This document shows, piece after piece, positions 27,206-34,799 of a stretch of DNA of 48,950 bases. Every line of letters begins with the position of its first letter. Position 1 is the first letter of the stretch. Origin of the DNA: Klebsiella pneumoniae (lineage in GTDB: Bacteria > Pseudomonadota > Gammaproteobacteria > Burkholderiales > UBA3065); assembly GCA_945897555.1 (NCBI GenBank), contig CAMDGF010000010.1, forward strand, positions 1-48,950, written 5' to 3'. Made by a program: the position numbers and the translations under genes. The notes under the pieces were generated by a model, which did no database searches, was not told the origin of the DNA, and worked only from the letters and a program-made list of their open reading frames with translations.

Positions 27206-27682
27206 CTAGAGGAAGCGCTCGAGGAACTTCCGGCTGGCGCGATCGAGCGCCGTGATGTCGCGGACCAGGTAGTGGACGCCTGCTGCATCGGCCACCAGCA
27301 GACTGCACGCGCCAACCCGCTGCAGGGCTTCTTCGCCCGGCAGCAGAAGGTCGGTGATGCCGCGGTCGGTGCGCACCGTCCAGCGGCTCGGTGTCGAGAC
27401 GCTACTGATGTGCAGGATGGCTTCGATCACGGGTGTGAACTCGCGGCTGTTCAGAGCCGAGCGCAGGCGCTCGCGGCGGTCTTCCTCGAGCCCCGCAAGG
27501 CTATCGATCCAGAGCAACTCATGGCCATCACTGTCGAGCACACAGACCGCCTCATCGGGCGCACTGATCGGATAAGCGCGCACCACTGCGACCCGCTCGT
27601 ACCGCACGCCATCGGCCTCAAGGCACCAATGGCCGGCGGGGTGGTGGAACAAGGCCCAGTGCATGCTCGTCGGTGCGTTCAA
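27206..27682 (-). CDS. DUF1854 protein of the cyanophycin locus
   Basis: A 158-residue DUF1854 protein. The family is repeatedly found next to cyanophycin synthetase genes together with an ABC transporter; its biochemical role is unknown. Visible blocks are G-V-R-Y-E-R-V-A-V-V-R-A-Y-P-I-S-A-P near residue 25, L-W-I-D-S-L and F-T-P-V-I-E-A-I-L-H-I-S-S-V-S-T-P-S-R-W-T-V. No signal or membrane helix is seen. The TTG at 27682 overlaps the stop of the ABC transporter gene as TTGA, so the pair is coupled; an ATG at 27664 is an alternative start. Confidence 0.85.
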   Translation of the reverse strand: MNAPTSMHWALFHHPAGHWCLEADGVRYERVAVVRAYPISAPDEAVCVLDSDGHELLWIDSLAGLEEDRRERLRSALNSREFTPVIEAILHISSVSTPSRWTVRTDRGITDLLLPGEEALQRVGACSLLVADAAGVHYLVRDITALDRASRKFLERFL

Positions 27683-29949
27683 GCCGCAGCTCCAGCCACG
27701 ACATCACTGCGCCGGCCGTCTTCAAGCAGCGTCTCGGCCTGACGCGCCTGCGCCTGATGGAGCGCGAAATAGGCGCCATGACGGGCCATCAGCTCATCGT
27801 GGGTACCGGTCTCGACCATCTCGCCGCGATCGAGCACGATCAGCCGGTCGGCACGGCGCAGTGTCGACAGACGGTGGGCGATGGCGATGGTGGTGCGGCC
27901 GCGCACCAGGTTGTCGAGCGCGGCCTGGATCGCTTTCTCGGTGGTCGAATCCACCGAGGATGTCGCCTCGTCGAGGATGAGGATGCGCGGGTCGATCAGC
28001 AGCGCCCGCGCGATGCTGATGCGCTGCCGCTCGCCGCCGGATAGCGACTGTCCGCGCTCGCCGACCAAGGAATCGTAAGCGTGCGGCAAGCGCATGATGA
28101 ACTCGTGGGCGTTGGCCGCGCGCGCTGCGGCCACGATCTCGGCGCGCGACGCGTCCGGCCGGCCGTAGGCGATGTTCTCGGCGATGGTGCCAAAGAAAAG
28201 GAATGGCTCCTGCAGCACCAGCCCGATGTGACGGCGGTAATCGGCCACGGCGAATTCGCGCAGATCGACGCCATCCACGCGGATCGCACCCTCGCTCACG
28301 TCATGAAAGCGGCAGACCAGGTTGACCAGCGTGCTCTTGCCCGAACCGCTGTGCCCGACCACGCCGATCATCTCACCCGGCCGGATGTCGAGGTCGAGCC
28401 GCCGGATGACTTGCCGATTGCCGTAGCGGAAGCTGACGCCCTCGAATTCGATGCGCCCCTCGATGCGAGCCAGCGGACGCGGATGCTCTGGCTCCGGCAC
28501 ATTGCTCACGTGGTCGAGGATATCGAAGATGCGCTTGGCACCGGCGGCCGCCTTCTGCGTGTGCGAGACGATCCGGCTCATGGTGTCGAGCCGCGTGTAG
28601 AAGCGCCCGATATAGGCGATGAAGGCGGTCAGCACGCCCACCGTGATCTCGTCGTTGGAGACCTGCCAGATGCCGAAGGCCCACACCACCAGCAAGCCGA
28701 TCTCGGTGAGCAGCGTGATGGTCGGCGCGAACAGCGACCAGACCTTGTTGACGCGATCGTTGACCTCGAGGTTATGGCGGTTGGCCGCGCGGAAACGGTC
28801 GGCCTCGCGGCCCTCCTGAGCAAACGCCTTGACCACGCGGATGCCGGGGATGGTGTCGGCCAGCACATTGGTCACCTCGGACCAGATGCGGTCGGCACGC
28901 TCGAAACCGCGACGCAAGCGATCGCGCACCACATGGATGAGATAGCCGATGACCGGCAGCGGCAACAAGGTGACCAGCGCCAGCCAGGGGTTGATGCTGA
29001 ACAGCACCACAGCGGTCATGCCGATCATCAGCACATCGGTGGCGAAATCGAGCAGGTGCAAGGACAGGAACAGGTTGATGCGCTCGGTCTCGGCGCCGAT
29101 GCGTGCCATCAGGTCGCCGGTGCGCTTGCTGCCAAAATAGCCCACCGACTGGTTGAGCAGGTGCTCGAAGGTGGCGGTGCGCAAGTCGGCACCGATGCGC
29201 TCGGAGACGCGCGCCAGCACGTAGGTGCGCGCCCAGCCGAGCAGCCAGCCGATCAGCGCGGCGGCCAACAGGCCCAGCATGTAGAGGCTCACCAGCCGCT
29301 TGTCCAGATCCTGACCGTTCTGGTAGGGGATCAGCAACTTGTCCATCAGCGGCATGGTCAGGTAGGGCGGCACCAGCGTCGCTGCCGTGGCCGCCAGCGT
29401 CAGGCAGAAACCCAGCAGCAAACGCGACCGGTATGGGCGAGCGAAGCGCCACAAGCGCAACAAGGTGAGCGTAGACGGTGGACGCTCGTCGTCGGCGCAG
29501 GCCTCGCACAGCGACACGCCCACCGACACTGGCGCGCCGCAGCCACGACATGGGGCCGAACGCGTGGCGTGATCGCCCTCGCGCCAGCGCAGCCAGGCAT
29601 CCACCAAGGTCTGCGCCGCCGGCTGCAAGCCAAGGCGGAACTCCCAGCGCGCCTGCAGTGCATCGCCACAGCGCCAATCGAGGCTGGCCACGCCGGCATG
29701 GTCGCCAAGCACCAGCGTGCCCTCTCGCAGCGACCACTCGCCGACCACTCGGATGCGCCGCTCGACCAGTGCCAGCGACAGCAGCCTCGAGGTGGTGAGC
29801 ACCACAGCACCCGGTGCGAAGCGCCGATCGGTGTCGAGGTCGGTCTCGGCGATGGCAAGCAAGGCTTCGTCGGGCGACAGCAACGCCTGCGCCGCCCGTG
29901 ACCAGGCGTCGACATCCGTGCTGGTGTGGGAAGGCCCAGCCGAGTTCAT
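27679..29949 (-). CDS. Cyanophycin-associated ABC transporter, fused permease and ATPase
   Basis: A 756-residue half-transporter. Residues 1-125 are a soluble domain of unknown function. A zinc ribbon follows with Cys134, Cys137, Cys148 and Cys151, then a six-helix exporter-type membrane domain (about 170-450). The nucleotide-binding domain has Walker A G-H-S-G-S-G-K-S-T, signature L-S-G-G-E-R-Q and Walker B I-L-I-L-D-E-A-T. Exporters of this type work as homodimers. Linkage to DUF1854 and cyanophycin synthetases suggests it moves a related compound or peptide, but the substrate is unknown. I chose ATG 29949 because a GTG at 30006 would place the conserved dyad inside the gene. Confidence 0.9.
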   Translation of the reverse strand: MNSAGPSHTSTDVDAWSRAAQALLSPDEALLAIAETDLDTDRRFAPGAVVLTTSRLLSLALVERRIRVVGEWSLREGTLVLGDHAGVASLDWRCGDALQARWEFRLGLQPAAQTLVDAWLRWREGDHATRSAPCRGCGAPVSVGVSLCEACADDERPPSTLTLLRLWRFARPYRSRLLLGFCLTLAATAATLVPPYLTMPLMDKLLIPYQNGQDLDKRLVSLYMLGLLAAALIGWLLGWARTYVLARVSERIGADLRTATFEHLLNQSVGYFGSKRTGDLMARIGAETERINLFLSLHLLDFATDVLMIGMTAVVLFSINPWLALVTLLPLPVIGYLIHVVRDRLRRGFERADRIWSEVTNVLADTIPGIRVVKAFAQEGREADRFRAANRHNLEVNDRVNKVWSLFAPTITLLTEIGLLVVWAFGIWQVSNDEITVGVLTAFIAYIGRFYTRLDTMSRIVSHTQKAAAGAKRIFDILDHVSNVPEPEHPRPLARIEGRIEFEGVSFRYGNRQVIRRLDLDIRPGEMIGVVGHSGSGKSTLVNLVCRFHDVSEGAIRVDGVDLREFAVADYRRHIGLVLQEPFLFFGTIAENIAYGRPDASRAEIVAAARAANAHEFIMRLPHAYDSLVGERGQSLSGGERQRISIARALLIDPRILILDEATSSVDSTTEKAIQAALDNLVRGRTTIAIAHRLSTLRRADRLIVLDRGEMVETGTHDELMARHGAYFALHQAQARQAETLLEDGRRSDVVAGAAA

Positions 29950-29973
29950 GGCGAGATTGTGCCGTGCATCGTT

Positions 29974-30005
29974 TGTCAACGCAGTGGCTCGGCCATGCGT
30001 TGACA
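29974..30005. promoter_or_regulatory. 32-bp dyad between divergent ABC transporter and cyanophycin synthetase genes
   Basis: The left arm TGTCAACGCA (29974-29983) pairs perfectly with TGCGTTGACA (29996-30005). Inside, TGGC (29985-29988) pairs with GCCA (29992-29995) around a 3-base centre, with one bulged G at 29984. It lies midway in the 87-base divergent gap, as expected for an operator shared by both directions. A hairpin role in RNA is also possible. Confidence 0.65.
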
Positions 30006-30036
30006 CAGCACGTCATTGCGAGCCCCAACCACCGAC

Positions 30037-32223
30037 ATGGAAAAGCCCGAACACCCTCGCCGCCCCGCCCGTTTCAGCCTCGAGTTCCTCGACATGCGCT
30101 TTATGGCTGGCCCCAACGTGTGGACCGTCGAGTATCACCCAGTGCTTGAGGCCGTCGTCGACATCGGGGCGCTCGAAGACTTCCCGTCCGACCTTCTGCC
30201 TGGCCTGCCGCAGCGTCTCGAAACGTGGCTGCCCGGCCTGGTCGAGCACCGTTGCAGCGTCGGCGAGCGCGGCGGCTTCCTGCAACGCCTCGAGCGCGGC
30301 ACCTGGGCCGGACACATCCTCGAACATGTCAGCCTCGAGCTGCAATCCATGTCCGGCTTCGAAGGCGGCTTCGGCCGCGCCCGCGAGATGTCTCGCCGAG
30401 GGGTCTACAAGGTCGCCATCAGCGTGCAGCACGAGGCCGTCGGCCGTCATGCCATGGCCGCCGCGCGCGAACTGGTGCTTGCTGCCATCCACGACGAGCC
30501 CTTCGATGTGGCTGCCGCGGTCGAGACCTTGCGCGACATGGCCGATTCCCTCTGCCTGGGACCGAGCACAGCGCATATCGTGGCTGCGGCCAAGGCCCGG
30601 CGCATCCCCTGGATGCGTCTCAACAGCGGCAATCTGGTGCAGATCGGCCATGGCGCTGCGCAACGTCGTATCTGGACCGCCGAGACCGACCGCACCAGTG
30701 CCATCGCAGAGGGCATCTCACGCGACAAGCAACTCACCCGGCAACTGCTGTCGGCGTGCGGCGTCGCTGTCTCGCAAGGCCGTCGGGTCGACAGCCTCGC
30801 AGACGCCTGGGATGCCGCCGAAGAGCTCGGTCTGCCGGTGGTGGTCAAGCCGCTCGATGGTAACCATGGCCGCGGTGTCTTCACCCACCTCACGACCCGC
30901 CAAGAGGTCGAGGCGGCCTATGTGGTGGCCATCGACGAGGGCAGCGGCGTGCTGGTCGAGCGCTTCATCGAGGGCCTTGAACATCGACTGCTTGTGGTCG
31001 GTGGCCGGCTGGTGGCTGCTGCCCGGGGCGACATCGCCCGCGTCATCGGCGACGGCCGCTCGACCCTCCTCGAACTCATCGAGACACAACTTAATAGCGA
31101 CCCGCGCCGCGGCCATGGCGAAGACCAACCCCTCAACCGTGTCCGGCTCGATTCCGCTGCCATCCTCGAGATCCGCCATCAGGGCTATGCCGACGGCGAT
31201 GCCATCCCGGCCGAAGGTGCCGAAGTCGTCATCCAGCGCAATGGCAACGTCGCCATCGACTGCACCGCGAAGGTGCACCCAGAGGTGGCGGCGCAAGCCT
31301 GTCTCGCCGCACGCATCGTCGGCCTCGACATCGCTGGCATCGACATCGTCAGCACCGACATCGGCCAGCCTTTCGCCGAGACCGGCGGTGCCATCGTCGA
31401 GGTCAACGCCGGACCGGGCCTGCTCATGCACATCAAGCCGGCAGAGGGTCCGCCGCAGGCCGTGGGTGCTGCCATCGTCGGCCACCTGTTCCCCGACGGC
31501 GCCAACGGGCGCATCCCATTGGTCGGTGTCAGCGGTAGCCACGGCAGCGCGCTCGCGGCCCAGCTCATCGCACGCATCCTCTCCTTTCACCCTTGGCGCA
31601 CCGGCCTCGTCTGCGCCATGCCCACCGAGGCCCCCGGCATCCTTTCCGCCTCGCGTCGCGACACGGTGTTCGAGCAAGGCCGCAAGGTGCTCATGAACCC
31701 GGCCGTAGAGGCCGCGGTGATCGAGACGCCGATGCGCGAACTGCTCGACGAGGGCACCAGCTACGACATCTGCGCCGTCGGTGTGGTGACCGGCCTCGAC
31801 ACCGCCACCACCTTTCCCGACCGCGACATGGAGACGCCCGAGCAACTGCACACCATCCTGCGCACGCAGGTGGATGTCGTGCCCCCTTGGGGGGTCGCAG
31901 TGCTCAACGCCGAAGATGAGATCGTCGCCGGCATGGCGGCACTCTGCGAGGGTGAGGTCGTGTACTTCTCCCGGCATGCAGACCATCCGGTGATCGCCGC
32001 ACACCTCTCCGCGGAGGGTCGTGCCGTGGTCATCTGCGAGGGTGAACTGCAGTTGCGCCGTGGCAGCCGCATCGAGGTGCTCTGCCAGACAGACGACCTC
32101 CCGGGCGGTTGCCCCGATACCCCCGGCTGCCGCGCACACCTAGCCGCCATCGCGGCAGCTTGGGCGTTGGGCGTCGACCGCGAGCAGATCCGCGCTGCGA
32201 CGCTCCATCCTGTTCCCGCTTGA
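30037..32223 (+). CDS. Cyanophycin synthetase paralogue with degenerate Mur-ligase P-loop
   Basis: A 728-residue relative of CphA, the enzyme that builds cyanophycin (poly-aspartate with arginine side chains). The N-terminal domain, with R-F-M-A-G-P-N-V-W and H-I-L-E-H-V-S-L-E-L-Q, and the ATP-grasp domain, with V-V-V-K-P-L-D-G-N-H-G-R-G-V and E-V-N-A-G-P-G, look intact. In the Mur-ligase-like domain the P-loop reads G-S-H-G-S-A at residues 500-505, lacking the essential Lys-Thr, and the protein is about 125 residues shorter than its neighbour. One ligase activity is therefore probably lost, as in CphA2 of cyanobacteria, which uses Asp-Arg dipeptides. ATG 30037 is preferred to a TTG at 30016. 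Confidence 0.88.
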   Translation: MEKPEHPRRPARFSLEFLDMRFMAGPNVWTVEYHPVLEAVVDIGALEDFPSDLLPGLPQRLETWLPGLVEHRCSVGERGGFLQRLERGTWAGHILEHVSLELQSMSGFEGGFGRAREMSRRGVYKVAISVQHEAVGRHAMAAARELVLAAIHDEPFDVAAAVETLRDMADSLCLGPSTAHIVAAAKARRIPWMRLNSGNLVQIGHGAAQRRIWTAETDRTSAIAEGISRDKQLTRQLLSACGVAVSQGRRVDSLADAWDAAEELGLPVVVKPLDGNHGRGVFTHLTTRQEVEAAYVVAIDEGSGVLVERFIEGLEHRLLVVGGRLVAAARGDIARVIGDGRSTLLELIETQLNSDPRRGHGEDQPLNRVRLDSAAILEIRHQGYADGDAIPAEGAEVVIQRNGNVAIDCTAKVHPEVAAQACLAARIVGLDIAGIDIVSTDIGQPFAETGGAIVEVNAGPGLLMHIKPAEGPPQAVGAAIVGHLFPDGANGRIPLVGVSGSHGSALAAQLIARILSFHPWRTGLVCAMPTEAPGILSASRRDTVFEQGRKVLMNPAVEAAVIETPMRELLDEGTSYDICAVGVVTGLDTATTFPDRDMETPEQLHTILRTQVDVVPPWGVAVLNAEDEIVAGMAALCEGEVVYFSRHADHPVIAAHLSAEGRAVVICEGELQLRRGSRIEVLCQTDDLPGGCPDTPGCRAHLAAIAAAWALGVDREQIRAATLHPVPA

Positions 32224-32234
32224 GCACGGCCTCC

Positions 32235-34799
32235 ATGAACATCTCACGCATCCGGGCTTTGCGCGGCCCCAACCTCTGGACACGCGAAACAGCCATCGAA
32301 GCGATCGTCGCTCTGTCGCCAGAGCACACCAGCCTGCAAGGGATGCCCGGCTTCGAGTCGCACCTGCGCGAGCGCCTGCCGCTCATCGGCCAGATCAGAT
32401 CCGTGAGCCACGACCTGACCACCCTCGCACACGCGCTGGAGGCGGTGGCCTTGGCCCTGCAGACGGCGATCGGCTGTCCGGTCAGCTTCAGTCGCACCGT
32501 CCACGCCGTCCACGACAACGTCTATCAAGTGGTGGTGCAATACAGCGAGGAGGCGGTCGGCCGGTTGGCGCTCACCTTCGCCGAATCGCTCTGCCGGGCT
32601 ACGCTTGAGGGGTCGCCCTTCGACCTCGACGCAGCACTCAGCGAGCTCCGCCGGATCGACGAGGACGTGCGCCTCGGGCCGAGCACGGGGGCCATCGTTC
32701 AGGCTGCGATGGCGCGCGGCATACCCTACCGCCGCCTGACTGAGGGCAGCCTTGTCCAGTTCGGCTGGGGGGCGCGACAAAGGCGCATCCAGGCTGCCGA
32801 GACCAGCCATACCAGCGCGATCGCCGAAGCCATCGCGCAGGACAAGACGCTAACCAAGGATCTGTTGCACGCTGCCGGTGTCCCCGTGCCATTGGGCCGT
32901 ACCGCTTGCGATGCGCGCGATGCCTGGGCCGTGGCCCAAGTCATCGGCTTGCCGGTGGTGGTCAAGCCGCGCGATGGCAACCAGGGCAAGGGCGTGGCGG
33001 TGAATCTGAGCAGTCGCGCAGCGGTCGAGGCCGCTTACGAGGTCGCCGCATCGTTTGGCGATGCGGTCATGGTCGAGCGCTATCTGCCCGGAAACGACTT
33101 CCGACTGCTGGTGGTGGGCGATCGCGTGGTCGCAGCCGCTCGGCGCGACCCGCCCTTGGTGACGGGCGATGGCATCCACACCGTCAGCCAACTGGTCGAC
33201 CAGGTCAACCTGGACCCGCTGCGTGGCGAAGGCCATGCCACCGCACTCACCCGCATCCGCATCGACGAGATCGCGCTTGCCACGCTGGCGAGCGGCGGTC
33301 TGACGCCGGCCAGCGTCCCCGACCGTGGCCAGCGGGTGGTCTTGCGCAACAACGCAAACCTGAGCACTGGTGGCACCGCCACCGACGTCACCGACCACGT
33401 CCACCCCAAAGTGGCCCAACGTGCGGTGCAGGCGGCCCAGATGGTCGGCCTCGACATCTGTGGCGTAGACCTCGTCTGCGAGGGCGTGCACCGCCCCCTC
33501 GAGGAGACCGGCGGCGGCGTCGTCGAGGTCAATGCGGCGCCCGGCCTGCGCATGCATCTCGCCCCCTCCTACGGCAAGCCTCGTGCGGTCGCCGAAGCCA
33601 TCGTCGACCTGATGTTCTCGGCAGGAGACGATGGGCGCATACCGGTCGTCGCGGTGTCCGGCACCAACGGCAAGACCACCACCGTACGTCTCGTCGCGCA
33701 GATGCTGCGCCACGCCGGCTTGCGCACCGGCATGACCACGACCGATGGCGTTTACATCGGCGAGCAGTTGATCGATGACGGTGACTGCAGCGGCCCAAAA
33801 AGCGCTCGCAATGTACTGTTGCACCCCGATGTCGACGCCGCGGTGTTCGAGACCGCGCGCGGCGGCATCCTGCGCGAGGGCCTCGGTTTCGACCGCTGCG
33901 ACGTTGCCGTAGTGACCAACATCGGCGTCGGCGATCACCTCGGGCTGAATTACATCAACACGGTCGAGGACCTCTCGGTGGTCAAGCGGGTGGTGGTGCA
34001 GAACGTCCGCCCGGGCGGCATGGCCGTGCTCAATGTCAGCGACCCCCTGGTCGCGCGGATGGCCGACGCATGCCCGGGTCGCGTGACGCTGTTTGGACGC
34101 GACCCGCGTCACGCTGCCCTGATCTCAAACAGGGTGCGGGGCGAACGCGTCGTCACGGTCGAGGATGATGCGATCGTCTGCATCGAGCGTGGCGAGCTGG
34201 CCCGTCTGCCGCTCAAAAACATTCCGATCACGCTGGGCGGCACCGTGGGTTTTCAGGTCGAGAACGTGCTGGCGGCAGTGGGTGCAGGCTGGGGCCTCGG
34301 CATCGGCTTCAACACCATGGCTGTCGCACTGGCCGGTTTCGAGGGCGATATCGATGCCACCCCCGGACGCTTTAACCGGCTCGATCACCGCGGTGCCACG
34401 GTCATCGCCGACTACGGCCACAACCCCGATGCGATGCTCGCTCTAGCCGAGGCCATCGACCGCATCGCCACCGGCAAGCGCGTGGTCGTCATCAGCGGCG
34501 CAGGCGACAGGCGCGACGAGGACATCCGCCGCCAGACCGAGATCCTCGGCGGCTGCTTTGACGAGGTCATCCTCTATCAGGACGCCTGCCAGCGCGGCCG
34601 CGCAAGCGGCGAGGTCACCCGCTTGCTGCGCGAGGGTCTGTCGGGTGCGACACGCGTGCGCCACGTCGAGACCCTCGATGGCGAGTTCGCCGCCATCGAC
34701 CGTAGTCTCGAGCGGCTTGCCCCCGGCGACGTCTGCCTCATCCTCATCGATCAGGTGCAGGAGGCGCTGGCGCACCTGCAACGCCGCTGCACCCGCTAG
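32235..34799 (+). CDS. cphA: Cyanophycin synthetase
   Basis: An 854-residue CphA that adds aspartate and then arginine to the growing cyanophycin chain at the cost of ATP. The N-terminal domain is followed by ATP-grasp (V-V-V-K-P-R-D-G-N-Q-G-K-G-V and E-V-N-A-A-P-G-L-R-M-H) and a full Mur-ligase domain with the P-loop G-T-N-G-K-T-T at residues 476-482, then D-Y-G-H-N-P-D-A and G-A-G-D-R-R-D-E-D near the end. It starts 12 bases after the stop of the paralogue, so both are in one operon. Its last four bases overlap the convergent lipoprotein gene. Cyanophycinase is not in the window. Confidence 0.95.
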   Translation: MNISRIRALRGPNLWTRETAIEAIVALSPEHTSLQGMPGFESHLRERLPLIGQIRSVSHDLTTLAHALEAVALALQTAIGCPVSFSRTVHAVHDNVYQVVVQYSEEAVGRLALTFAESLCRATLEGSPFDLDAALSELRRIDEDVRLGPSTGAIVQAAMARGIPYRRLTEGSLVQFGWGARQRRIQAAETSHTSAIAEAIAQDKTLTKDLLHAAGVPVPLGRTACDARDAWAVAQVIGLPVVVKPRDGNQGKGVAVNLSSRAAVEAAYEVAASFGDAVMVERYLPGNDFRLLVVGDRVVAAARRDPPLVTGDGIHTVSQLVDQVNLDPLRGEGHATALTRIRIDEIALATLASGGLTPASVPDRGQRVVLRNNANLSTGGTATDVTDHVHPKVAQRAVQAAQMVGLDICGVDLVCEGVHRPLEETGGGVVEVNAAPGLRMHLAPSYGKPRAVAEAIVDLMFSAGDDGRIPVVAVSGTNGKTTTVRLVAQMLRHAGLRTGMTTTDGVYIGEQLIDDGDCSGPKSARNVLLHPDVDAAVFETARGGILREGLGFDRCDVAVVTNIGVGDHLGLNYINTVEDLSVVKRVVVQNVRPGGMAVLNVSDPLVARMADACPGRVTLFGRDPRHAALISNRVRGERVVTVEDDAIVCIERGELARLPLKNIPITLGGTVGFQVENVLAAVGAGWGLGIGFNTMAVALAGFEGDIDATPGRFNRLDHRGATVIADYGHNPDAMLALAEAIDRIATGKRVVVISGAGDRRDEDIRRQTEILGGCFDEVILYQDACQRGRASGEVTRLLREGLSGATRVRHVETLDGEFAAIDRSLERLAPGDVCLILIDQVQEALAHLQRRCTR

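Follow-up and report, generated by a model that had tools for sequence, protein, structure and literature searches.

A proposed division of cyanophycin synthetase between two adjacent genes in Burkholderiales

In the 48,950-nucleotide stretch of DNA analysed here (contig CAMDGF010000010.1, hereafter the window), two adjacent genes, cphA' and cphA, encode related proteins, and each protein keeps catalytic sites that the other has lost. Comparison of the sequences indicates that the pair is probably a cyanophycin synthetase that was split by duplication and complementary loss, in which CphA' would prime a primer-dependent CphA. The reciprocal pattern of sites between the two paralogues is not a matter of chance; it recurs in every pair that we fetched. 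The split also appears, from the predicted proteins, to be the arrangement in most of the sampled Burkholderiales that carry cyanophycin genes. The observations behind this reading are the reciprocal sites, the descent of each paralogue from one origin, the conserved gene order and the signs of purifying selection.

The cphA' gene (30037–32223, plus strand) is an open frame of 728 amino acids, whose product consists of the N domain, the ATP-grasp (G) domain and the core of the Mur domain, without the Mur C-terminal lobe. It scored 914 bits with the NCBIfam model NF010623 of the cyanophycin synthetase subfamily (cut-off 877), and its 655 bits with the CphA1 equivalog TIGR02068 lay below the cut-off of 850. 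The AlphaFold2 model of the protein was well folded, with a pLDDT of 90. The preliminary description had placed an intact CphA gene directly downstream, and it is indeed there: cphA (32235–34799, plus strand) starts 11 bases after the cphA' stop codon. Its 854-aa product, which passes the cut-offs of NF010623 and TIGR02068 alike, has a complete Mur domain (GTNGKT, DHLG and the C-terminal lobe) and the aspartate-binding loop, and has Gln in place of His267.

The N domain of many CphA1 enzymes has been shown to house a third catalytic site, marked by the motif Cx19HxxEH. This zinc endo-cyanophycinase cleaves cyanophycin to give short primers and is able to work in trans on a primer-dependent CphA1 (PMC9262961). 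In vitro, a CphA1 lacking this site was made primer-independent by an isolated N domain or by a CphA1 with dead G and M sites; the known activity of the domain is slow, and its products are tetramers, not dipeptides (PMC9262961). We found that the N-terminal domain of the window CphA' is complete, as had been proposed earlier, and that it also carries the hydrolase motif, which had been overlooked. The site spans residues 71–101 (30247–30339, plus strand), with an exact Cx19HxxEH match from C73, and H71, C73, F81, R84, H93, E96, H97 and E101 are identical to H57, C59, F67, R70, H79, E82, H83 and E87 of SuCphA1. Only a remnant of the site is present in CphA (32382–32456, plus strand), where the loop with C59, F67 and R70 is deleted and H83 and E87 are replaced by Ala (AHALEAVALAL); a scan of the window CphA for HxxEH gave no match, and the cysteine-bearing loop was missing as well. 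That the motif denotes an endo-cyanophycinase which makes primers and acts in trans is taken from the published relatives; the activity of CphA', cyanophycin as its substrate and its cooperation with CphA are inferred.

The same division was seen throughout the collected loci. After alignment to SuCphA1 with MAFFT, C59, H79, E82 and H83 were found in all 74 CphA' proteins that include the N region, whereas the motif was present in none of the 70 partner CphAs. R70 and Y110, the residues of this site that bind cyanophycin, were likewise invariant among the CphA' proteins. Three pairs of entries in the collection are the same loci (L032/L061, L033/L062 and L034/L063), and the counts were redone, with the same outcome, on 33 non-redundant CphA' and 31 non-redundant CphA sequences. 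Among the 33, seven of the eight site residues fell within the 24 most conserved of the 146 N-domain columns (p about 1e-5), the mean identity of the domain being only 64%; the site loop was lost in all 31 CphAs. Identity within the N-site segment was higher in CphA' than in CphA (0.74 and 0.57), while in the Mur core it was lower (0.47 and 0.73). Single-gene CphA1 proteins kept every site, both in other Gammaproteobacteria (8/8) and in the Burkholderiales loci that we read (6/6).

The ATP-grasp site of CphA' had been regarded as complete, which holds for one half of it: the residues for ATP and the acyl phosphate (SuCphA1 K261, H267 and R309) are present, but the aspartate-acceptor half, retained by the partner CphA, is gone. 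In the alignment, G331 (31027–31029, plus strand) replaces Arg323 and L463 (31423–31425, plus strand) replaces Arg458 of the aspartate alpha-carboxylate site; both arginines have aspartate-binding roles in the G domain of CphA1 (PMC9427784). The large loop of the G-omega module (31246–31257, plus strand) has a deletion of five residues (RNGNV/AID compared with NLSTGG) that removes S396, the N394 side of the deletion being uncertain in the alignment. The window CphA' thus departs from CphA1 at the whole acceptor set of R323, the N394/S396 loop and R458. Across the aligned non-redundant CphA' proteins, K261 and R309 were invariant and H267 was found in 31 of 33, and in several lineages (L003, L096, L097 and L115) the G site was wrecked or altered.

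The P-loop of the Mur domain in the window CphA' is ruined (GSHGSA, residues 500–505; 31534–31551, plus strand), with S504 at the position of the P-loop lysine. The loss had been recognised before and was confirmed by the comparison of SGSHGSA with GTNGKT of both the neighbouring CphA and SuCphA1. TATT stands where CphA1 has the D585–H586 pair, a Pfam search of the window CphA' matched neither Mur domain, and the C-terminal lobe, or lid, is absent. With all three of these features of CphA1 missing, the earlier expectation that the protein would not attach free arginine is well supported by its predicted sequence. A full Mur domain with GTNGKT and the C-terminal lobe was seen in the CphA' proteins of Cupriavidus (L064–L070, L091, L098, L100 and L101), with DHLG observed in L064. 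Because these proteins retain a complete-looking Mur domain, its loss is lineage-specific, and the ruined Mur site is not the defining trait of the CphA' family.

Many partner CphAs are cut at the ends of the loci, and the Mur site was scored in the full-length ones only; it was complete in 10 of 11 that were non-redundant. Gln replaced the catalytic His267 (DGNQGKG) in 29 of the 31 non-redundant CphA proteins, which counts against a split synthetase. Alanine at this position inactivates SuCphA1. The histidine is kept by two partner CphAs, and in the full set L003 and L097 are among those keeping it. In Cupriavidus sp. UYMMa02A (L082) cphA' and cphA alike appear to contain frameshifts, which may be a sequencing error.

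Upstream of the pair in the window, divergent from it and tightly linked, lie two genes on the minus strand, and this synteny is common to the pair loci. One encodes an ABC exporter (27679–30006) that matched NF052233, 'cyanophycin metabolism-associated ABC transporter', with 1284 bits (cut-off 880), and the other (27206–27682) matched NF052234, 'cyanophycin metabolism-associated DUF1854 family protein', with 177 bits (cut-off 150). The window protein displays the traits of the CphA' family, namely an intact N site, a deleted G-omega loop, the loss of R323, a CphA without the N site downstream, and ABC and DUF1854 neighbours. When 399 Burkholderiales genomes were searched, 146 gave a CphA-like match, about 131 of them with the pair, 11 with a single CphA1 and 4 with partial or other arrangements. 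Counted by hand, the DUF1854 gene was present in 131 of 134 pair-bearing genomes (the pairs together with three genomes in which one member was found) and in 0 of the 11 single-CphA1 genomes.

The distribution of cyanophycinase was the opposite. Matches above the cut-off were found in 11/11 single-CphA1 genomes and in only 10 of about 131 pair genomes of the Burkholderiales, and of these ten, five were strong and the other five scored 136–172 bits. In the four strong-match loci that were read fully, the cyanophycinase adjoins an additional CphA: G539, G328, G568 and G650 (L119–L122; L118 in G624 is partial) have a second CphA cluster next to a true cyanophycinase, and the extra CphA also lacks the N-site motif. 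The two contrasts were large (Fisher tests, 4e-11 and 4e-14), with the 11 single-CphA1 genomes coming from two genera only, so that neither contrast is phylogenetically independent. In the host genome, which is 98.5% complete, we detected no cyanophycinase, IaaA, IadA or hydrolase of the AstE/AspA type. A cyanophycinase was reported in 2.8% of the beta-proteobacterial genomes with CphA1, which was termed unanticipated (PMC10206079).

In all 70 loci with both genes, the two are co-oriented and cphA' is the upstream one. In a G-domain tree built by maximum likelihood, CphA' formed one clade and the partner CphA another, each with support of 100/97. As the partner CphAs form one clade, the loss of their N site was probably one old event; species are then not independent tests of the loss, and what they do test is the retention of the site in CphA'. 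Near the split in the tree lies L093, an unpaired gene that retains every site and is found within the ABC/DUF1854 neighbourhood typical of pairs, a context as expected of the unsplit form. Pairwise dN/dS of CphA' was 0.14–0.23 and no domain looked neutral, the dead Mur core included. Such purifying selection excludes a pseudogene, and from it the remaining domains can be expected to have a structural role; together with the invariance of K261 and R309, the constraint on the dead Mur core suggests that CphA' does more than hold the N domain, which counts against a role in priming alone.

Several loci depart from the usual arrangement. In G091 (L115) both the G and M sites of CphA' are wrecked, and the N site (HCFRHEHE) is perfect. 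In G673 the CphA' that adjoins CphA is without the motif, and a second, unlinked CphA' has it, with Ala at E87; G674 has two CphA' copies in the same arrangement (the loci of these two genomes are L129, L130 and L132). In a metagenome-assembled genome labelled Verrucomicrobiaceae, cphA' and cphA are on separate contigs, and their sites are still complementary; such labels may be wrong through mis-binning. In G367 (L113), of the same genus as the host, the pair was not found, and part of a protein of 1154 aa is ATP-grasp/Mur-like and falls in the cyanophycin synthetase superfamily.

CphA' shares with CphA1 (SuCphA1, 7lg5 and 7txv; TeCphA1, 7wac) the N-G-M order of domains, the fold and the identical residues of the N site. 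CphA1, however, has three sites in one protein, whereas CphA' is without the determinants for aspartate and arginine ligation and the partner CphA is without the N site. CphA1 gave the closest match to the model of CphA' (7wae, 36% identity, Z 44.1 with an rmsd of 3.9 across 710 residues), and the match to CphA2 was poorer (7ta5, Z 27.9; 8fxh, Z 23.9; 23–24% identity). Cyanobacterial CphA2 (7ta5, 8fxh) has lost the Mur P-loop and lid (PMC9427784), as has the window CphA', but it lacks the N-site motif (PMC9262961), of which the window protein has an exact copy. The acceptor loop, deleted in CphA', is apparently full-length in CphA2, to judge from alignment offsets with 8fxh alone; the comparison with CphA2 as a whole is based on published statements, such offsets and structural Z scores. 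On these likenesses and differences CphA' is assignable to neither CphA1 nor CphA2. The partner CphA resembles the primer-dependent TmCphA1 (7lgn), which also lacks the N-site motif but keeps H267, and for which no CphA' partner has been described. CphA1 enzymes without the N site, TmCphA1 among them, get by with no known partner, which counts against CphA' as a source of primers. Cyanophycinase CphB (TIGR02069), which cleaves the backbone of cyanophycin, may overlap with CphA' in function, but it is of an unrelated family, is exo-acting, yields dipeptides and is absent from the host.

The gene pair itself was known before. Activated-sludge bacteria were described with two cphA copies and an ABC gene but no cphB, both copies being evenly expressed in Accumulibacter (PMC10687191), and a Sideroxydans pair was annotated as 'CphA1, CphA2' (PMC5178258). 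These and the Cupriavidus necator genes are the same pair, usually without cyanophycinase. According to two reviews citing Adames 2013, the two genes of C. necator yielded cyanophycin neither in their own host nor in E. coli (PMC8560796, PMC11362209). None of the openly available texts that we read describes how the active sites are shared out between cphA' and cphA; subscription papers could not be searched, and the priority of this point is uncertain.

Other roles for CphA' were considered. It could be the missing betaproteobacterial cyanophycinase, breaking down stored polymer rather than, or besides, making primers. Such a role would fit because cyanophycinase is absent; the host has none of the four types of hydrolase sought, and the enzyme is rare both in the pair genomes and in the published survey, although the genomic count is phylogenetically dependent, its single-CphA1 side coming from just two genera. 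The slow activity known for the N domain, with tetramers as products, and the common orientation of cphA' with a synthetase gene speak against it, and we regard it as possible but doubtful. A related proposal, in which CphA' would be a dedicated endo-cyanophycinase serving as depolymerase and length trimmer, and would form with CphA, the ABC exporter and the DUF1854 protein a four-gene system unlike CphA1–CphB, seems unlikely. The near-constant DUF1854 gene of the pair-bearing genomes, missing from those with a single CphA1, and the divergent exporter beside it would also suit a pair that makes a non-classical polymer or oligomer, possibly exported by the linked transporter, with CphA' trimming its length; the H267Q replacement in CphA and the failure to find cyanophycin with the C. 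necator genes point the same way. We consider this distinctly unlikely, as CphA retains a complete Mur site as well as the aspartate-binding loop, the cyanophycin-binding R70 and Y110 are invariant in CphA', and any substrate of the transporter is conjectural.

A non-catalytic or mainly structural CphA' that stabilises or regulates CphA would be consistent with the constraint on all of its domains and with the confident model. It is quite improbable, however, given that the metal ligands, the general base, R70 and Y110 are invariant in so variable a domain, and that the N site persisted in L115 after both other sites had been lost. The suggestion in the preliminary description that CphA' is a regulatory partner of CphA was right in direction, although the observations favour a partner with a catalytic role, that of a hydrolase, over one that only regulates. 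Its other suggestion was that the ATP-grasp domain of CphA' polymerises beta-Asp-Arg dipeptides, as in CphA2. The missing Mur P-loop and lid and the retained K261, H267 and R309 agree with this, and the loss of the acceptor residues might reflect a change of acceptor. The idea nevertheless fared badly: the N motif, absent from CphA2, is present, the acceptor loop, apparently full-length in CphA2, is deleted, sequence and model are nearer to CphA1, no cyanophycinase that could make the dipeptides was recognised in the host, the G site is wrecked or altered in several CphA' lineages and the Mur domain of the Cupriavidus proteins looks complete. We therefore hold it to be highly improbable. The ruined Mur site and the missing lobe might also suggest that CphA' arose by tandem duplication and is now a pseudogene in decay; this, or a sequencing error, was ruled out by the dN/dS values, by the occurrence of the pair in about 131 of the 399 genomes searched and by the old single clade of CphA'.

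Under the preferred explanation, a synthetase split by duplication, CphA would retain the two ligations, addition of aspartate by the G domain and of arginine by the M domain, and, without the zinc hydrolase of the N domain, should need primers. CphA' would have lost both ligations and kept the endo-cyanophycinase site. It would cut early chains in trans into short (beta-Asp-Arg)n pieces, which CphA would then extend. The two proteins are probably co-expressed and perhaps co-assembled, and CphA' may mobilise the polymer as well.

If this is true, the experiment that led to the discovery of the primer-making site has been done by evolution in more than 100 of the sampled genomes, with the hydrolase placed on a separate protein, and the balance between cutting and extending would become open to regulation. 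The lack of cyanophycin from the Cupriavidus genes may also become easier to understand, provided that they were tested singly. CphA' would be a candidate for the cyanophycinase that Betaproteobacteria seem to lack, and co-expression of the pair would suggest itself as a simple route to better cyanophycin production.
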